Below are positions 40,136-45,107 of a DNA stretch of 64,000 nt, piece by piece. Source of the stretch: Streptomyces sp. ACA25 (lineage in GTDB: Bacteria > Actinomycetota > Actinomycetes > Streptomycetales > Streptomycetaceae). The stretch is from contig NZ_JAQKPV010000002.1 in the NCBI RefSeq assembly GCF_028200735.1, positions 434,001-498,000 on the forward strand, written 5' to 3'. The position numbers and the translations under genes are program-made. A model generated the notes under the pieces. That model was given only the letters and a program-made list of their open reading frames with translations, ran no database searches and was not told where the DNA came from. Every line of letters starts with the position of its first letter. Within the stretch, counting starts at the first letter, position 1.

Positions 40136-41224
40136 TCACTGCGGGTCCGGCGGCGACCTCAGCACGTGCGCGCCGCGGGCCGTGCTGCTGACGGCGGCGA
40201 GGAAGCCGCCGGCCCGGGGGGAGGCCCGGTCCGTGAACCAGTCCTCGGGGATGTCACACACCGCGATCACCGCCGGGGTGTCGCCCAGGACCAGCGGCAG
40301 TGTGTGCACCACCGTCGACGGAAAGCTCAGCAGGCGGGCCGCGACCGGGCCGCGGCGGGCCACCAGCTCCAGCGGCAGCTCCGGCCGGACGACCTCCAGG
40401 CCCGCCTCCTCCGCGATCCTGCGCAGCTTGGCCGCCCCCTCCCTGCGGTGGGCGAAGTAGCGGGTGGCACCGTCACGCCGGGCCAGTTCGGTGACGGCCG
40501 CCAGGTACCGGTCCTCTCGGATCACCCCGGTCTCCACCAGTGAGGTGCCCACCAGGTCGGCGCCGGCCGACAGCCGGGGCGGGCCGAAGCGGGCCCGTGT
40601 CCAGCCGAAGGCGTTCGCGGTGACGCGCATCCCGGCCGGGCCTTCCACGGGCATCGCGGTGAACACCTCCACGCTCCGGCCCGCGGACGGGCTGAGCCGG
40701 CGCACCGCCCGCCGCGCCACCGGGGCGAACAGGGCAGCCCGTGGACCGCGCGGAGCGGCCCGGTGCCAGCGCACCAGGGGAGCTCCGCGTCCGACGCGGC
40801 CGAGGAACTCCATGGTGGCCGTGCCGTCGTCGACCACCACCACCCGCCGCGGCCCGGCGGTGGCCAGCAGCAGTTGGAGGCAGCGGGAGAACGGGTCCCC
40901 GATGACCAGGCGGTGGGCCCGGCGCAGCCGGCGGGCGAGCCGGGCGGTGGTACGGGCCGCGGCCACCGCACCGCGGGCCTCGCGCCAGAGCACCTCGTGT
41001 CCCTCCGCGCGGGCGAGCCGCGTCATGCGCTGGAGCTGCCCGCGGGAGGCGGGGTCCCGGGGCGGCAGCACCACGACGGTGACGGCTCCGGTGTCCCCGG
41101 GCTCGGGCACGGCCGGCTGCGTGTGGGCCCATTCCAGGACGTTCAGCAGCTGGACCGGGCTCTCCACGAGCGCGAGCGTGCCGGCCGTGCCGCGAACCTG
41201 CCGCCGCCGGGCGCCGCTGGTCAC
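40136..41224 (-). CDS. Polysialyltransferase-like glycosyltransferase (POLYST family)
   Basis: A 362-residue protein whose start, GTLALVESPVQLLNVLEWAH, is the signature of the alpha-2,8-polysialyltransferase family (bacterial capsule and LOS enzymes). VVVVDDGTATMEFL (about 127) and RYFAHRREGAAKLRRIAE (about 251) are further family segments; the latter includes the usual Y-x-x-H-R/P-R/K-E donor-site motif. It follows neuB by 14 bp and should transfer CMP-activated nonulosonic acid to a cell-surface polymer. S. coelicolor makes a Kdn-containing teichulosonic acid in its wall, the most likely product type here. Confidence 0.82.
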   Translation of the reverse strand: MTSGARRRQVRGTAGTLALVESPVQLLNVLEWAHTQPAVPEPGDTGAVTVVVLPPRDPASRGQLQRMTRLARAEGHEVLWREARGAVAAARTTARLARRLRRAHRLVIGDPFSRCLQLLLATAGPRRVVVVDDGTATMEFLGRVGRGAPLVRWHRAAPRGPRAALFAPVARRAVRRLSPSAGRSVEVFTAMPVEGPAGMRVTANAFGWTRARFGPPRLSAGADLVGTSLVETGVIREDRYLAAVTELARRDGATRYFAHRREGAAKLRRIAEEAGLEVVRPELPLELVARRGPVAARLLSFPSTVVHTLPLVLGDTPAVIAVCDIPEDWFTDRASPRAGGFLAAVSSTARGAHVLRSPPDPQ

Positions 41225-41238
41225 CGCCCGTACCCCCG

Positions 41239-42183
41239 TCAGACCGTCACGGGTGCGCGGCCGGCGACCTGCTCCGCAACGACCCCCGGGACCCGGCGCA
41301 GCTTCTTCATCGGGGCCAGCTCGCTGTCGTAGACCCTCTTCACGCCGTCCCCGAGGGACTCCTCGATGGTGCGGATGTCACGGACCAGCCGGGACAGGCC
41401 CTGCGGTTCGACCGAGGCGGCCTGGTCGGATCCCCACAGTGCACGGTCGAGAGTGATGTGCCGCTCGACGAAGACCGCGCCGAGGGCGACCGCGGCCAGG
41501 GTGGTCTGCAGGCCGGTCTCGTGGCCGGAGTAGCCGATGGGCACGTTGGGGTACTCCGCCTGCAAGGTGTGGATCATGCGCAGGTTGAGCTCCTCCGCCT
41601 TGGCGGGGTAGGTGCTGGTGGCGTGGCAGAGCAGGATGTTCTCACTGCCCAGGACCTCCACGGCGTGCCGGATCTGCTGCGGGGTGGACATGCCGGTGGA
41701 CAGGATGACAGTGCGGCCGGTGGCCCGCAGGGCACGCAGCAGCTCGTCGTCGGTGAGGGAGGCGGAGGCCACTTTGTGGGCGGGCACGTCGAACTTCTCC
41801 AGGAAGGCGACAGCCTCGGTGTCCCACGGGGAGGCGAACCAGTCGATGCCGCGCTTCGCGCAGTAGGCGTCGATGGCGCGGTAGCCCTCCTCGTCGAACT
41901 CCACGCGGTGGCGGTAGTCGATGTAGGTCATCCGCCCCCAGGGGGTGTCGCGCTCGATGTCCCACTGGTCGCGCGGGGTGCAGATTTCGGGTGTGCGCTT
42001 CTGGAACTTCACCGCGTCGCAGCCGGCTTCGACGGCGGCGTCGATGAGCGCGAAGGCGTTCTCGAGGTCCCCGTTGTGGTTGATGCCGATCTCGCCGGTG
42101 ATGTAGACCGGACGGCCGGGGCCGGCGGTGCGGTCGCCGAGCCGGCGGAGGCGGGTGGAGGCCGTGTCGGCAGATGCGGTCAT
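41239..42183 (-). CDS. neuB: Nonulosonic acid synthase, NeuB-like, without SAF domain
   Basis: A 314-residue TIM-barrel synthase condensing phosphoenolpyruvate with a hexose derivative (ManNAc, mannose or their 6-phosphates). NeuB segments: YITGEIGINHNGDLENAF (about 27), DAVKFQKRTPEICT, DWFASPWDTEAVAFL, KVASASLTDDELLRAL, ILLCHATSTYPA, IGYSGHETG and ERHITLDRALWGSDQAAS. The C-terminal antifreeze-like SAF domain, which completes the neighbouring subunit's active site in typical 340-350-residue NeuB, is almost wholly missing. The ATG overlaps the stop of the preceding gene. Whether it makes a sialic acid or Kdn cannot be decided from sequence. Confidence 0.88.
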   Translation of the reverse strand: MTASADTASTRLRRLGDRTAGPGRPVYITGEIGINHNGDLENAFALIDAAVEAGCDAVKFQKRTPEICTPRDQWDIERDTPWGRMTYIDYRHRVEFDEEGYRAIDAYCAKRGIDWFASPWDTEAVAFLEKFDVPAHKVASASLTDDELLRALRATGRTVILSTGMSTPQQIRHAVEVLGSENILLCHATSTYPAKAEELNLRMIHTLQAEYPNVPIGYSGHETGLQTTLAAVALGAVFVERHITLDRALWGSDQAASVEPQGLSRLVRDIRTIEESLGDGVKRVYDSELAPMKKLRRVPGVVAEQVAGRAPVTV

Positions 42184-43394
42184 GGTGAGGTCAGTTCCTT
42201 TCCGAGAATCCACGAGGCGATCTCGCGGATCGCGCCGGCTCCTCCGGGTACGGAGGTGACGGCACACGCGGCGGCCTGTACGACGTCGTGCGCGTTCGCG
42301 ACCGCGACGGGCCAGCCGACGAGGTCGAAGCACGGGAGGTCGTTGACGTCGTTGCCCGCGTACAGGACGCGTTCCGGCGCGATGCTGTGCTCCTCGCACC
42401 ACTGCTTGAGTGCGAGGTCCTTCCGGTCGATGCCGTGCAGAACCGGGATGCGCAGCTTGCGCGCCCGGGCGGCGACCACCGGGTTCTCCTCCGTGGACAG
42501 GATCAGCAGGGGCAGGCCGGCGCGGCGCAGCGCGGCGATCCCGAGCCCGTCGCCGCGGTGCACGGCGACGAGTTCCCGTCCGGTGGAGTCGACGAGCACC
42601 CGGTCATCGGTCTGGGTGCCGTCGAAGTCGAGTACGACCGCGTCGATGTCGCCGCGGGCCGGCCGGCGCCCGGGGGGCGGCGGCGCGGTGGCGCCGGGCG
42701 GCGCGGGGTCGAGCAGCGGGGCGAGCGCGCGGGCCCGTGCGAGATCGTGCGGATCGTCGACCTCCAGGACCCGGGCGGGGTCGGTGCGCACCAGTTCGGT
42801 GCGGCCGAAGAAGCGGTGCCGGGCGGTCCGGAAGCCGTCGGCCCGCATGGCGTAGGCGGCACCGGTCTCCAGCAGGTCCTCGGGGCGGTCCTGGCGCCGC
42901 GGCCGGTGCGCCCGCTCGTGGTTGACGCCCTCAGCTCCGGTGTCCGGGGTCTCCCGCCAGAGGAAGCCGTGGAACGGCGCGGCGGTGAGGGCGGTGTCGG
43001 CGCCTCCGAGGACCGCGGCTGCCACGCCGTCGATCTCCTCGCGGGTGAGGAAGGGGCTGGTGCACTGCACGAGCAGCACGACATCGGCGCGGCCGGTCCG
43101 GTCGCGATGCCCGTTGTCGTATGCGTCGAGGGCGTGCAGCACCGCGCTCTCGCTGGTGGCGGTGTCGCCCGAGAGCGTGCCGGGCCGTGCGACGACGGCG
43201 GCTCCGGCGGCCCGGGCGGCGACTGCGATGCCGGGGTCGTCGGTGGAGACGACCACGTCGGTGACCAGCCGGGCGGCCAGGCATTCCCGGACGGCCCGGA
43301 CGACCAGGGGGAGGTCGCCGACCGGCGCGAGGTTCTTGCCGGGCACCCCCTTGGAGCCGCCGCGGGCGGGGATCACGGCCAGTACGGTGCTCAT
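42180..43394 (-). CDS. Fused acylneuraminate cytidylyltransferase and HAD phosphatase
   Basis: A 404-residue two-domain enzyme. Residues 1-230 are a NeuA-type CMP-nonulosonate synthetase: IPARGGSKGVPGKNL (8-22), ARPGTLSGDTATSESAVLHA and LLVQCTSPFLTREEID. A Pro/Gly linker follows, then (about 255-404) a KdsC-like HAD phosphatase with the nucleophile motif VVLDFDGTQTDD, LSTEENPVV and the Mg2+ motif YAGNDVNDLPCF. Together they could dephosphorylate a nonulosonate-9-phosphate and activate it with CTP, implying that NeuB uses a 6-phosphate substrate. The HAD motif has DFDGTQTDD for the usual DVDGVLTDG. Its stop overlaps the neuB start. Confidence 0.9.
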   Translation of the reverse strand: MSTVLAVIPARGGSKGVPGKNLAPVGDLPLVVRAVRECLAARLVTDVVVSTDDPGIAVAARAAGAAVVARPGTLSGDTATSESAVLHALDAYDNGHRDRTGRADVVLLVQCTSPFLTREEIDGVAAAVLGGADTALTAAPFHGFLWRETPDTGAEGVNHERAHRPRRQDRPEDLLETGAAYAMRADGFRTARHRFFGRTELVRTDPARVLEVDDPHDLARARALAPLLDPAPPGATAPPPPGRRPARGDIDAVVLDFDGTQTDDRVLVDSTGRELVAVHRGDGLGIAALRRAGLPLLILSTEENPVVAARARKLRIPVLHGIDRKDLALKQWCEEHSIAPERVLYAGNDVNDLPCFDLVGWPVAVANAHDVVQAAACAVTSVPGGAGAIREIASWILGKELTSP

Positions 43395-43459
43395 CGGTGG
43401 TTCCTCGTTCTCGGAGCGGTCCTCGGCGGCGGTCCCGGCGGAGGACCCGGCGGCGCGGG

Positions 43460-44854
43460 TCACAGCTGCCCCCAGCGGCGGATCGGCGGGGCCACCCGCT
43501 GGACGGCGGTGCGGTAGGCACCGCGGGCCGCGCGGCGGACGAGACGGCGGACGGCTGCGCGGAGCCGCGGAGCCGCTCCCCGGCCGGTGCCCGCGGTCAG
43601 CGGCTCGCCCTTGCTGTCCAGGCCGTGGCGGGCCAGGACGCCGGGGAGATAGCCGGGGGCGGTGCGGGGAGAGTAGAAGGGGGCGAGGGGCGGCAACCCG
43701 GTGGTGGCGGCCCGGTCCAGCAGGGCGGCGAGCCGTTCACCTGCGGCGGCGAACGCCCGGTCCCCGGCGGTGCTGACCCCGTGGTCGGTGAGCCACCGGG
43801 GGTCCGGGACGGGCAGGTGGCCGGCGTCCAGCTGGTCCCAGGAGGCGAAGCAGCCGGAGCCGAGGAAGTAGTGGTTCCCCAGGGGCTCACGGATGCCGAG
43901 GTCGGTCAGGACCGCGGTGGGGACGGAGCGGTGCAGCGCTTCCAGGGCAGCGGTGGAGCTGACCGTCACCAGCAGATCGGTACCGTCCAGGATCTCCCCC
44001 ATGTTGCCGTAGGAGAGACGGAAGTTGGCGGGCCGGTCACCCTTGGTCCTGGCGACGAGGCGCTGATAGGGCAGCTCCTCGACGTGCGTGGTGTGCTCGC
44101 CGGGCCGGCTGCGCAGCTTGAGCACGACCTCGCGGTCCGGGTGCCGCCGGGCGTGCGCCAGGACGCGGTCCAGCAGGTACTCGCGCTCCGCCCGGCTGCC
44201 GGGAACGGAGGGCTGGACCGCGAAGACGACGCGGAACGGGCGCTCACCGCGGGCCACCGCGCCGGGGTCGTGGGCAACGGATGCGCTGTCCAGGAACGGC
44301 AGCGCGCATTCAGCGACTGCGGCGCTGTCCGTGCCGGCTCCGGCGTAGACCGTCCGGAAGCGTTCCGCGTCGTGGCGGCTGTTGGCCAGGACGAGGTCGG
44401 CGCCGTGCCTCAGGAGCAGTCCGTCGGTGAGCTTTTCGTAGACCACGCCGACGTAGCCGGTCACGATGACGGGGCGCCGGCCGGTGGCCGGCCAGGTGCG
44501 GCCGAGGCGGTGGAGCAGTGCCTGGATGGTGCCGCCCACGCAGGCCAGCACGACCACGTCGAAGGCCGGCCGGCCGGTGCCGTCCGAGCCCGGCTCCCCC
44601 GGTGCCTCCGGCCCGGACGGCCGGTCCGCCAGGCCGGCCGTGAACCCGGCCAGCGTGGTCTCGCGGAGGACGTCGGGAGCGGCCCCGGTCTCCGCGAGCT
44701 GGCGGGCGGTGGGGGTGGCGCGGCCCCGCAGCAGGAAGCCGTGGACGACCGAGCCGGGGGCGATCCGGCGCGCGGTGAGCGCGCCCCATTTCCACCGGGT
44801 GTCGGAGTCGGCGATCACGGCCACGCGCAGCGGACCTGTCGGGGTTTCGGGCAC
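43460..44854 (-). CDS. DUF6716-type putative glycosyltransferase
   Basis: A 464-residue protein that reads like a GT-B transferase: RVAVIADSDTRWKWGALTAR at the start, VVVLACVGGTIQALLHRL (about 100), VIVTGYVGVVYEKLTDGL, a central DLVLANSRHDAERF, and TDLLVTVSSTAALEALH (about 310) in the nucleotide-sugar half. In NCBI annotation such proteins are called DUF6716 putative glycosyltransferases and lie beside neuA/neuB genes. GTG 44854 is supported by CAGTAT seven bases upstream. It is the first gene of the four-gene cluster and probably adds a second sugar or starts the polymer. Confidence 0.75.
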   Translation of the reverse strand: MPETPTGPLRVAVIADSDTRWKWGALTARRIAPGSVVHGFLLRGRATPTARQLAETGAAPDVLRETTLAGFTAGLADRPSGPEAPGEPGSDGTGRPAFDVVVLACVGGTIQALLHRLGRTWPATGRRPVIVTGYVGVVYEKLTDGLLLRHGADLVLANSRHDAERFRTVYAGAGTDSAAVAECALPFLDSASVAHDPGAVARGERPFRVVFAVQPSVPGSRAEREYLLDRVLAHARRHPDREVVLKLRSRPGEHTTHVEELPYQRLVARTKGDRPANFRLSYGNMGEILDGTDLLVTVSSTAALEALHRSVPTAVLTDLGIREPLGNHYFLGSGCFASWDQLDAGHLPVPDPRWLTDHGVSTAGDRAFAAAGERLAALLDRAATTGLPPLAPFYSPRTAPGYLPGVLARHGLDSKGEPLTAGTGRGAAPRLRAAVRRLVRRAARGAYRTAVQRVAPPIRRWGQL

Positions 44855-44867: not shown

Positions 44868-45107
44868 GGCAGCCCGGTGAAGGACCGGACCAACGCGATA
44901 CCAACAAACCGTGAACAGGACCGCACCGAACGGCCAACCAGCCTGCTGAGAAGCGGAGTTCACCTGTCGTTCAGGCTCGCTTCACCGCCTGGGCCCGAGG
45001 CCGACAGGCGGCGGAGCGTTTCCGGGCCGCCCCGGCGGACGGGAGGCACGAGCCCTGCGGCTGCCCCCGCGGCCCGCGGCGGCGGAGGCAGCGGAGCTCA
45101 GCTCCGG

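Follow-up and report, generated by a model that had tools for sequence, protein, structure and literature searches.

Four adjacent genes within a 64,000-nucleotide stretch of the Streptomyces sp. ACA25 genome (the window, on which all positions are numbered) form a reduced variant of the teichulosonic-acid locus of Streptomyces, and we put at roughly 0.72 the probability that this locus makes a wall glycopolymer containing 3-deoxy-D-glycero-D-galacto-non-2-ulosonic acid (Kdn). The genes encode a DUF6716 protein, a fusion of NeuA with a HAD phosphatase domain (NeuA-HAD), a NeuB-family synthase, and a protein at 40136-41224. The cluster itself is already known and is not special to this genome; among the new findings is the lack of two genes, one for a GT2 glycosyltransferase and one for a PF07388 polysialyltransferase. 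Because this divergent pair is gone, the product should lack the part that the two enzymes add, and the strain's polymer is probably simpler than usual.

Identity of the locus and its missing gene pair

The scan for relatives of the window NeuB gave at least 574 related stretches, and the best 80, which were retained for comparison, all come from Streptomyces or Streptomycetaceae (85 to 92% identity). Where the contig extends far enough, the Streptomyces loci show the four genes in the same arrangement, and DUF6716 is found in 144 of the 150 Streptomyces genomes. Recurrence of the same block across these loci indicates that it is not a chance grouping. A passage citing Ostash 2014 (PMC13011467) names SCO4873-SCO4882 both as genes for teichulosonic acid and as targets of PhoP, and SCO4880 and SCO4878 are tabulated as a sialic acid synthase and a GT2 enzyme, respectively (PMC8269224). 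The polymer is described in published passages as composed of galactose and Kdn, and as the chief glycopolymer of the Streptomyces wall (PMC7831098, PMC11481543). Judged by family, conserved order and these passages rather than by the S. coelicolor sequence itself, the four genes are the SCO4879-4882 part of this region, which supports the link to a Kdn wall polymer drawn in a preliminary description of the window.

In the usual arrangement, the GT2 and PF07388 genes are transcribed divergently beside DUF6716 (PF07388 E = 4.2e-29 in locus L028), and beyond them lies a methyltransferase gene in L028 and an acyltransferase gene in L064. Of 72 scorable rows, 62 have one or both members of the pair, L052 having PF07388 alone. 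The pair was absent in the other 10 (the window, L002, L004, L007, L008, L010, L011, L012, L013 and L015), a count reached by removing from 17 rows marked as pair-less the seven that end near the locus and cannot be scored (L016, L018, L019 [with a GT2 piece], L022, L039, L056 and L066). When the nine other reduced loci were searched by lax tblastn, neither GT2 nor PF07388 matched at 1e-3, and in all nine the nearest upstream called gene encodes a mutase or a sigma factor. PF07388 has no match anywhere in the window genome, which is 5.43 Mb long, 99.6% complete and placed in Streptomyces through its relatives; the best match there to the GT2 partner is only 34% over 117 residues. Across the genus, PF07388 occurs in 140 of 150 members, and six of the ten lacking it also lack DUF6716, leaving the window genome (G000) and three others (G062, G113 and G135) with DUF6716 but no PF07388.

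In the tree, one 12-row group (Shimodaira-Hasegawa-like approximate likelihood ratio test support, 100) holds the window and all but one of the nine further reduced loci; the exception, L007, lies with L052 in the enclosing fork (support 91, drawn open). This pattern fits a stepwise loss of the pair without proving it. L052 is Streptomyces aculeolatus, in which PF07388 is kept and no GT2 gene is seen at the locus, perhaps an intermediate stage of the loss.

Unrelated glycosyltransferases encoded at other sites in the genome could have replaced the missing pair, such that the normal galactose-Kdn (Gal-Kdn) polymer is still made. Four weak GT2 matches in the genome and a second DUF6716 gene (G000:C23:94667-95680) are compatible with replacement, which we nevertheless regard as improbable: the best of the GT2 matches is the partial one given above, PF07388 is missing genome-wide, and no NeuB, GT2 or polysialyltransferase gene was called around the second DUF6716 gene. 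The locus of this gene on contig C23 was accordingly rejected as a replacement polymer cluster. The second copy (L090 9644-10933) is 51% identical to that in the window, and L093 and L095 have similar surroundings.

The features of the window locus are as follows.

43460..44854, minus strand: DUF6716 protein (PF20471), 464 amino acids (aa), putative CMP-Kdn-linked glycosyltransferase with a GT-B fold (CMP, cytidine monophosphate); alternative GTG start at 44926
42180..43394, minus strand: fusion of NeuA (CMP-nonulosonate synthetase, about aa 1-230) to a KdsC-like HAD phosphatase domain (aa 249-404), 404 aa in all; a GTG at 43463 is an alternative start
41239..42183, minus strand: NeuB-family synthase, 314 aa, PF03102 match (E = 1.9e-81), predicted Kdn-9-phosphate synthase
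40136..41224, minus strand: polysialyltransferase-fold protein, 362 aa, without a Pfam family, predicted CMP-Kdn transferase
44958..44990, plus strand: three successive PHO-box-like repeats of 11 bases each, 104-136 bases ahead of the start of DUF6716, to which they are in reverse orientation

As the preliminary description had it, four genes run in one direction: the open reading frames are intact, lie at these positions on the minus strand in the order DUF6716, NeuA-HAD, NeuB and 40136-41224, and the first three have matching Pfam families. Its statement that they overlap holds for NeuA-HAD and NeuB (ATGA at 42180-42183) and fails for NeuB and the last gene, which are 14 bases apart; for DUF6716 and NeuA it depends on the NeuA start, the GTG at 43463 giving an overlap and the ATG at 43394 a 65-base gap. 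The neighbors are apparently unrelated to the cluster: upstream lies a methylmalonyl-CoA mutase gene, about 0.25 kb from DUF6716 (0.18 kb if the alternative start is used), and downstream are genes for an M20 peptidase-like protein and a BMP-type lipoprotein.

Predicted synthesis of a CMP-activated nonulosonic acid

The NeuB gene is the sole PF03102 match in the genome. Its product ends about 30 residues beyond the NeuB domain, with no SAF domain detected at E = 0.01, and scores 251.8 bits against TIGR03569 (NeuB with a C-terminal SAF domain), under the cut-off of 399.65. Short forms of NeuB do exist, since the solved relative 6ncs has only 290 residues. Shortly before an invariant Thr-Asp, a position occupied by Glu or Asp in four aligned solved relatives is taken by Ser (132) or Cys (3) in the 135 matches to the window subfamily (this count and the motif count for the 40136-41224 family below include some genomes entered under several locus identifiers).

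The NeuA-HAD fusion matches CTP_transf_3 (E = 4.1e-20) and HAD families of Pfam. Its HAD domain matches the solved proteins 3mmz (E = 1.1e-84) and 3e81 (E = 4.8e-16), the latter of which we take to be a Kdn-9-phosphate phosphatase, its database record reading "acylneuraminate cytidylyltransferase." The KdsC-like motifs DFDGTQTD, LILST, RKDLA and GNDVND are all present, and motifs and homology together support a phosphorylated product. In other actinobacteria, NeuA, the HAD phosphatase and NeuB constitute one polypeptide of about 695 residues (L193 14448-16529 and L200 6896-8986), tying the phosphatase to the product of NeuB. These family assignments uphold the proposed synthesis, dephosphorylation and CMP activation of a nonulosonate.

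The epimerase that the preliminary description did not find in the window is absent from the whole genome as well. Searches detected neither Epimerase_2, the uridine diphosphate (UDP)-N-acetylhexosamine 2-epimerase family (controls positive in 11 of 14 genomes), nor NanE (controls positive in 8 of 14, 6 of them over the cut-off). Among the 150 Streptomyces genomes, 59 have Epimerase_2 and 91 do not; and only 55 of the 144 genomes carrying DUF6716 have it, a tally taken from both genome listings, suggesting that an epimerase is not needed and that conversion of mannose-6-phosphate to Kdn-9-phosphate is the simplest route. A single type I phosphomannose isomerase (ManA) is encoded in the genome. 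With ManA present and both epimerases absent, the sugar is most likely Kdn derived from mannose-6-phosphate; thus, of the two sugars that had been considered, Kdn is favored and N-acetylneuraminic acid (Neu5Ac) is unlikely. The lack of any sialic-acid epimerase across the genome is a direct argument for the mannose-6-phosphate route in these bacteria. Housekeeping ManA would supply mannose-6-phosphate, which the SAF-less NeuB would condense with phosphoenolpyruvate to yield Kdn-9-phosphate. Removal of the phosphate would fall to the HAD part of the fusion protein, and the NeuA part would convert Kdn to CMP-Kdn.

The SAF domain helps other NeuB enzymes bind the N-acetyl sugar. Its absence, the lack of Epimerase_2 and NanE from a genome that is nearly complete, and a phosphatase suggestive of a phosphorylated product all argue against synthesis of Neu5Ac or another N-acetylated nonulosonate from N-acetylmannosamine or its 6-phosphate, for which we consider the chances very small. 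Such a product would accord with the homology of NeuB and NeuA to enzymes of Neu5Ac synthesis, and a Serratia capsule locus is described as giving both Kdn and Neu5Ac and as needing one neuB (PMC9000132).

Transferases that may use CMP-Kdn

The protein at 40136-41224 belongs to no Pfam family at E = 0.01 (at E = 10, only DUF4350 appears, at 0.12) and matches no NCBIfam model. Only 1 of its 35 homologues matches PF07388, at E = 0.16, and profile comparison of its family with PF07388 relatives, or with DUF6716, revealed no sequence link; profile searches of solved-structure sequences with all three groups returned nothing meaningful. Its AlphaFold2 model, built from 35 sequences (predicted local distance difference test score [pLDDT], 89.0; predicted template modeling score, 0.88), has the polysialyltransferase 5wc6 as its first Foldseek match (E = 1.4e-6). 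On structural re-alignment, 5wc6 (Z = 20.0 over 328 residues; root mean square deviation [rmsd], 5.9) and 5wcn (Z = 19.8 over 326 residues; rmsd, 6.4) stand apart from the next best match (Z = 14.6). The protein is thus, on its modeled structure, a polysialyltransferase by fold without membership in the PF07388 sequence family, and the enzyme's earlier assignment to the polysialyltransferases stands at the level of fold and falls at that of sequence family.

Asp132-Asp133-Gly134, His259, Glu286 and Ser303-Thr304 are invariant in all 35 homologues. In the Mannheimia enzyme, as described, Glu153 of the D/E-D/E-G motif is the base, His291 stabilizes the leaving group with assistance from Ser339-Thr340, and Glu323 holds the ribose (PMC5517516). 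The catalytic positions of the two proteins are similarly spaced, having been paired by order and spacing and not by residue-level superposition. Of 151 matched stretches of the 40136-41224 family, 14 lack the motifs and 11 lack Ser-Thr, some of which may be cut short. The protein is predicted, from its model, to act as a CMP-Kdn transferase.

The DUF6716 protein matches PF20471 with E = 1.2e-109 (366.9 bits against a cut-off of 27), an entry that Pfam calls a putative glycosyltransferase, and its AlphaFold2 model (pLDDT, 85.2) is that of a GT-B protein. The solved folds nearest to the model are UDP-N-acetylglucosamine 2-epimerases (Z up to 20.8), with plain GT-B transferases at Z values of 17 to 18, which raised DUF6716 as a hidden UDP-sugar 2-epimerase providing the hexose precursor. 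This candidate was rejected as very unlikely: the epimerase motifs GTRPE, HRREN and SGGxQEE, all kept in eight aligned Streptomyces epimerases, are absent from the window protein; profile comparison with epimerases aligned only a 93-column piece at 18% probability; and the Pfam description is itself that of a glycosyltransferase. A control Escherichia coli genome also has a DUF6716 match above the cut-off.

DUF6716 and the NeuB subfamily largely occur together. Among 394 genomes of the class, 75 have both, 6 have DUF6716 alone, 1 has NeuB alone and 312 have neither; without Streptomyces, the corresponding numbers are 38, 5, 1 and 310. DUF6716 was counted over its cut-off and NeuB at E ≤ 1e-140, a threshold set after seeing a gap in E values between 3.4e-140 and 5.0e-105, and relatedness among the genomes inflates the test of co-occurrence. 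Only 1 of 14 genomes with just a weaker NeuB match has DUF6716 (G782), and L196 has NeuB without DUF6716, its neighbors being unreadable. NeuA-HAD, NeuB and DUF6716 are adjacent in all five of the non-Streptomyces genomes first examined, with GT2 and PF07388 present as well in one of these (G398). No member of the 40136-41224 family appears among the called genes of those five stretches of 18 to 19.5 kb, in one of which (L134) gene calling is gappy. In a second set of ten stretches, the family adjoins DUF6716 in five (L193, L197, L198, L200 and L202) and NeuB in L201. Two stretches of this set run against the pattern: in L194 and L195, both of genus g226 and lacking this NeuB subfamily, DUF6716 has no gene of the cluster beside it. 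L199 8166-10373 encodes a fusion of the 40136-41224 family to DUF6716 in a single 735-residue protein.

We infer that DUF6716 is a transferase tied to CMP-Kdn. From these gene neighborhoods the transferases appear to fall into two pairs: GT2 goes with PF07388, DUF6716 goes with the 40136-41224 family, and the window lineage retains only the latter pair. DUF6716 and the polysialyltransferase-fold protein would use CMP-Kdn to build the wall glycopolymer. The part contributed by GT2 and PF07388 may be the galactose of the Gal-Kdn repeat, which would leave a Kdn-only or otherwise simpler chain. It is conceivable, though we advance it only tentatively, that this branch of Streptomyces makes a galactose-free poly-Kdn, with the 40136-41224 protein as the Kdn polymerase and DUF6716 as the CMP-Kdn transferase that starts the chain on a carrier; the fusion in L199 suggests that the two act as a pair. 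Polymerization, which had been proposed along with the earlier steps, is the least secure of them given the absence of the PF07388 enzyme and its GT2 partner, with a polysialyltransferase present at the level of fold. A literature search found no paper assigning roles to the four transferases of the teichulosonic-acid locus.

Possible phosphate control and comparison with known systems

The GTTCACC-like repeats at 44958-44990 are the only three-unit match with three or fewer mismatches in the 64 kb (expected number, 0.03). Their score of 16.4 is the highest among 73 upstream regions, the best of 365 shuffles reaching 13.9. The PHO box has a GTTCACC core. PHO boxes are described as 11-base direct repeats (PMC7866108), and teichulosonic proteins are described as raised in a phosphate-stressed pptA mutant of S. 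lividans. The cluster is probably controlled by PhoP, for which the repeats offer a candidate site; PhoP would switch the locus on at low phosphate because the polymer needs no phosphate.

Several observations weigh against a Kdn polymer made under PhoP control. The Ser or Cys at a usually acidic position of NeuB, together with the missing SAF domain, means that the substrate could be unusual, and the NCBIfam equivalogs for NeuB, PseI, KDN-9-phosphatase and KdsC all score below cut-off. We know of no activity for DUF6716, and a literature search found no paper naming it. The PHO-box-like site is directed away from DUF6716, toward the expected place of the lost GT2 gene; the best site has this same orientation in 59 of the 73 upstream regions and in 32 of the 34 that reach 13.9. 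The nine other reduced loci score 11.9 to 14.9, and three of them reach the shuffle maximum of 13.9, such that PhoP control is not clearly kept there. Finally, with the PF07388 enzyme absent, a polymer may not form.

The last two points bear on whether the locus is a relic that forms no polymer, its output being limited to CMP-Kdn, to a short linkage unit or to one Kdn residue capping a different wall polymer. Loss of the pair throughout the branch and the weak scores in most reduced loci favor a relic, as do three actinobacterial stretches of 18 to 19.5 kb (L131, L132 and L133) that carry NeuA-HAD, NeuB and DUF6716 without other transferases. However, the four reading frames are intact with their catalytic positions kept, and NeuB shares 89 to 92% identity with its counterparts in the nine other reduced loci, which argues for selection; moreover, a Kdn cap would still be functional. 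We therefore hold the relic to be an unlikely outcome, albeit one with some weight, and prefer a locus making a simplified Kdn-containing polymer.

Known systems offer several counterparts. The Kdn-9-phosphate phosphatase of Bacteroides (NF058599) is homologous to the HAD domain of the window and shares its motifs, but the window domain is fused to NeuA and scores 74.3 bits, short of the 180-bit equivalog cut-off. The sps genes of Bacillus subtilis, in which SpsE is a NeuB relative (1vli), likewise serve CMP-sugar synthesis for a surface glycan, but are described as involving UDP-linked precursors, six enzymes and legionaminic acid as the product (PMC7439481). The GT38 polysialyltransferase of Mannheimia haemolytica (5wc6; PMC5517516) has the same fold as the window protein, with D/E-D/E-G, His and Ser-Thr following one another in the same order; the window protein differs in having only 11% identity, an rmsd of 5.9, HR in place of HP, no PF07388 match and Kdn as the predicted sugar. 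The closest counterpart is SCO4873-SCO4882 of S. coelicolor, which has the same four-gene block in family and order, found genus-wide; loci of this type also have the divergent GT2 and PF07388 genes that the window genome lacks, and L028 and L064 have methyl- or acyltransferase and LysE genes between the mutase gene and DUF6716, for which the interval in the window is too small. Because this lineage has kept a single transferase pair, the functions of the two pairs can be told apart, and setting its polymer against that of S. coelicolor would reveal the contribution of each.

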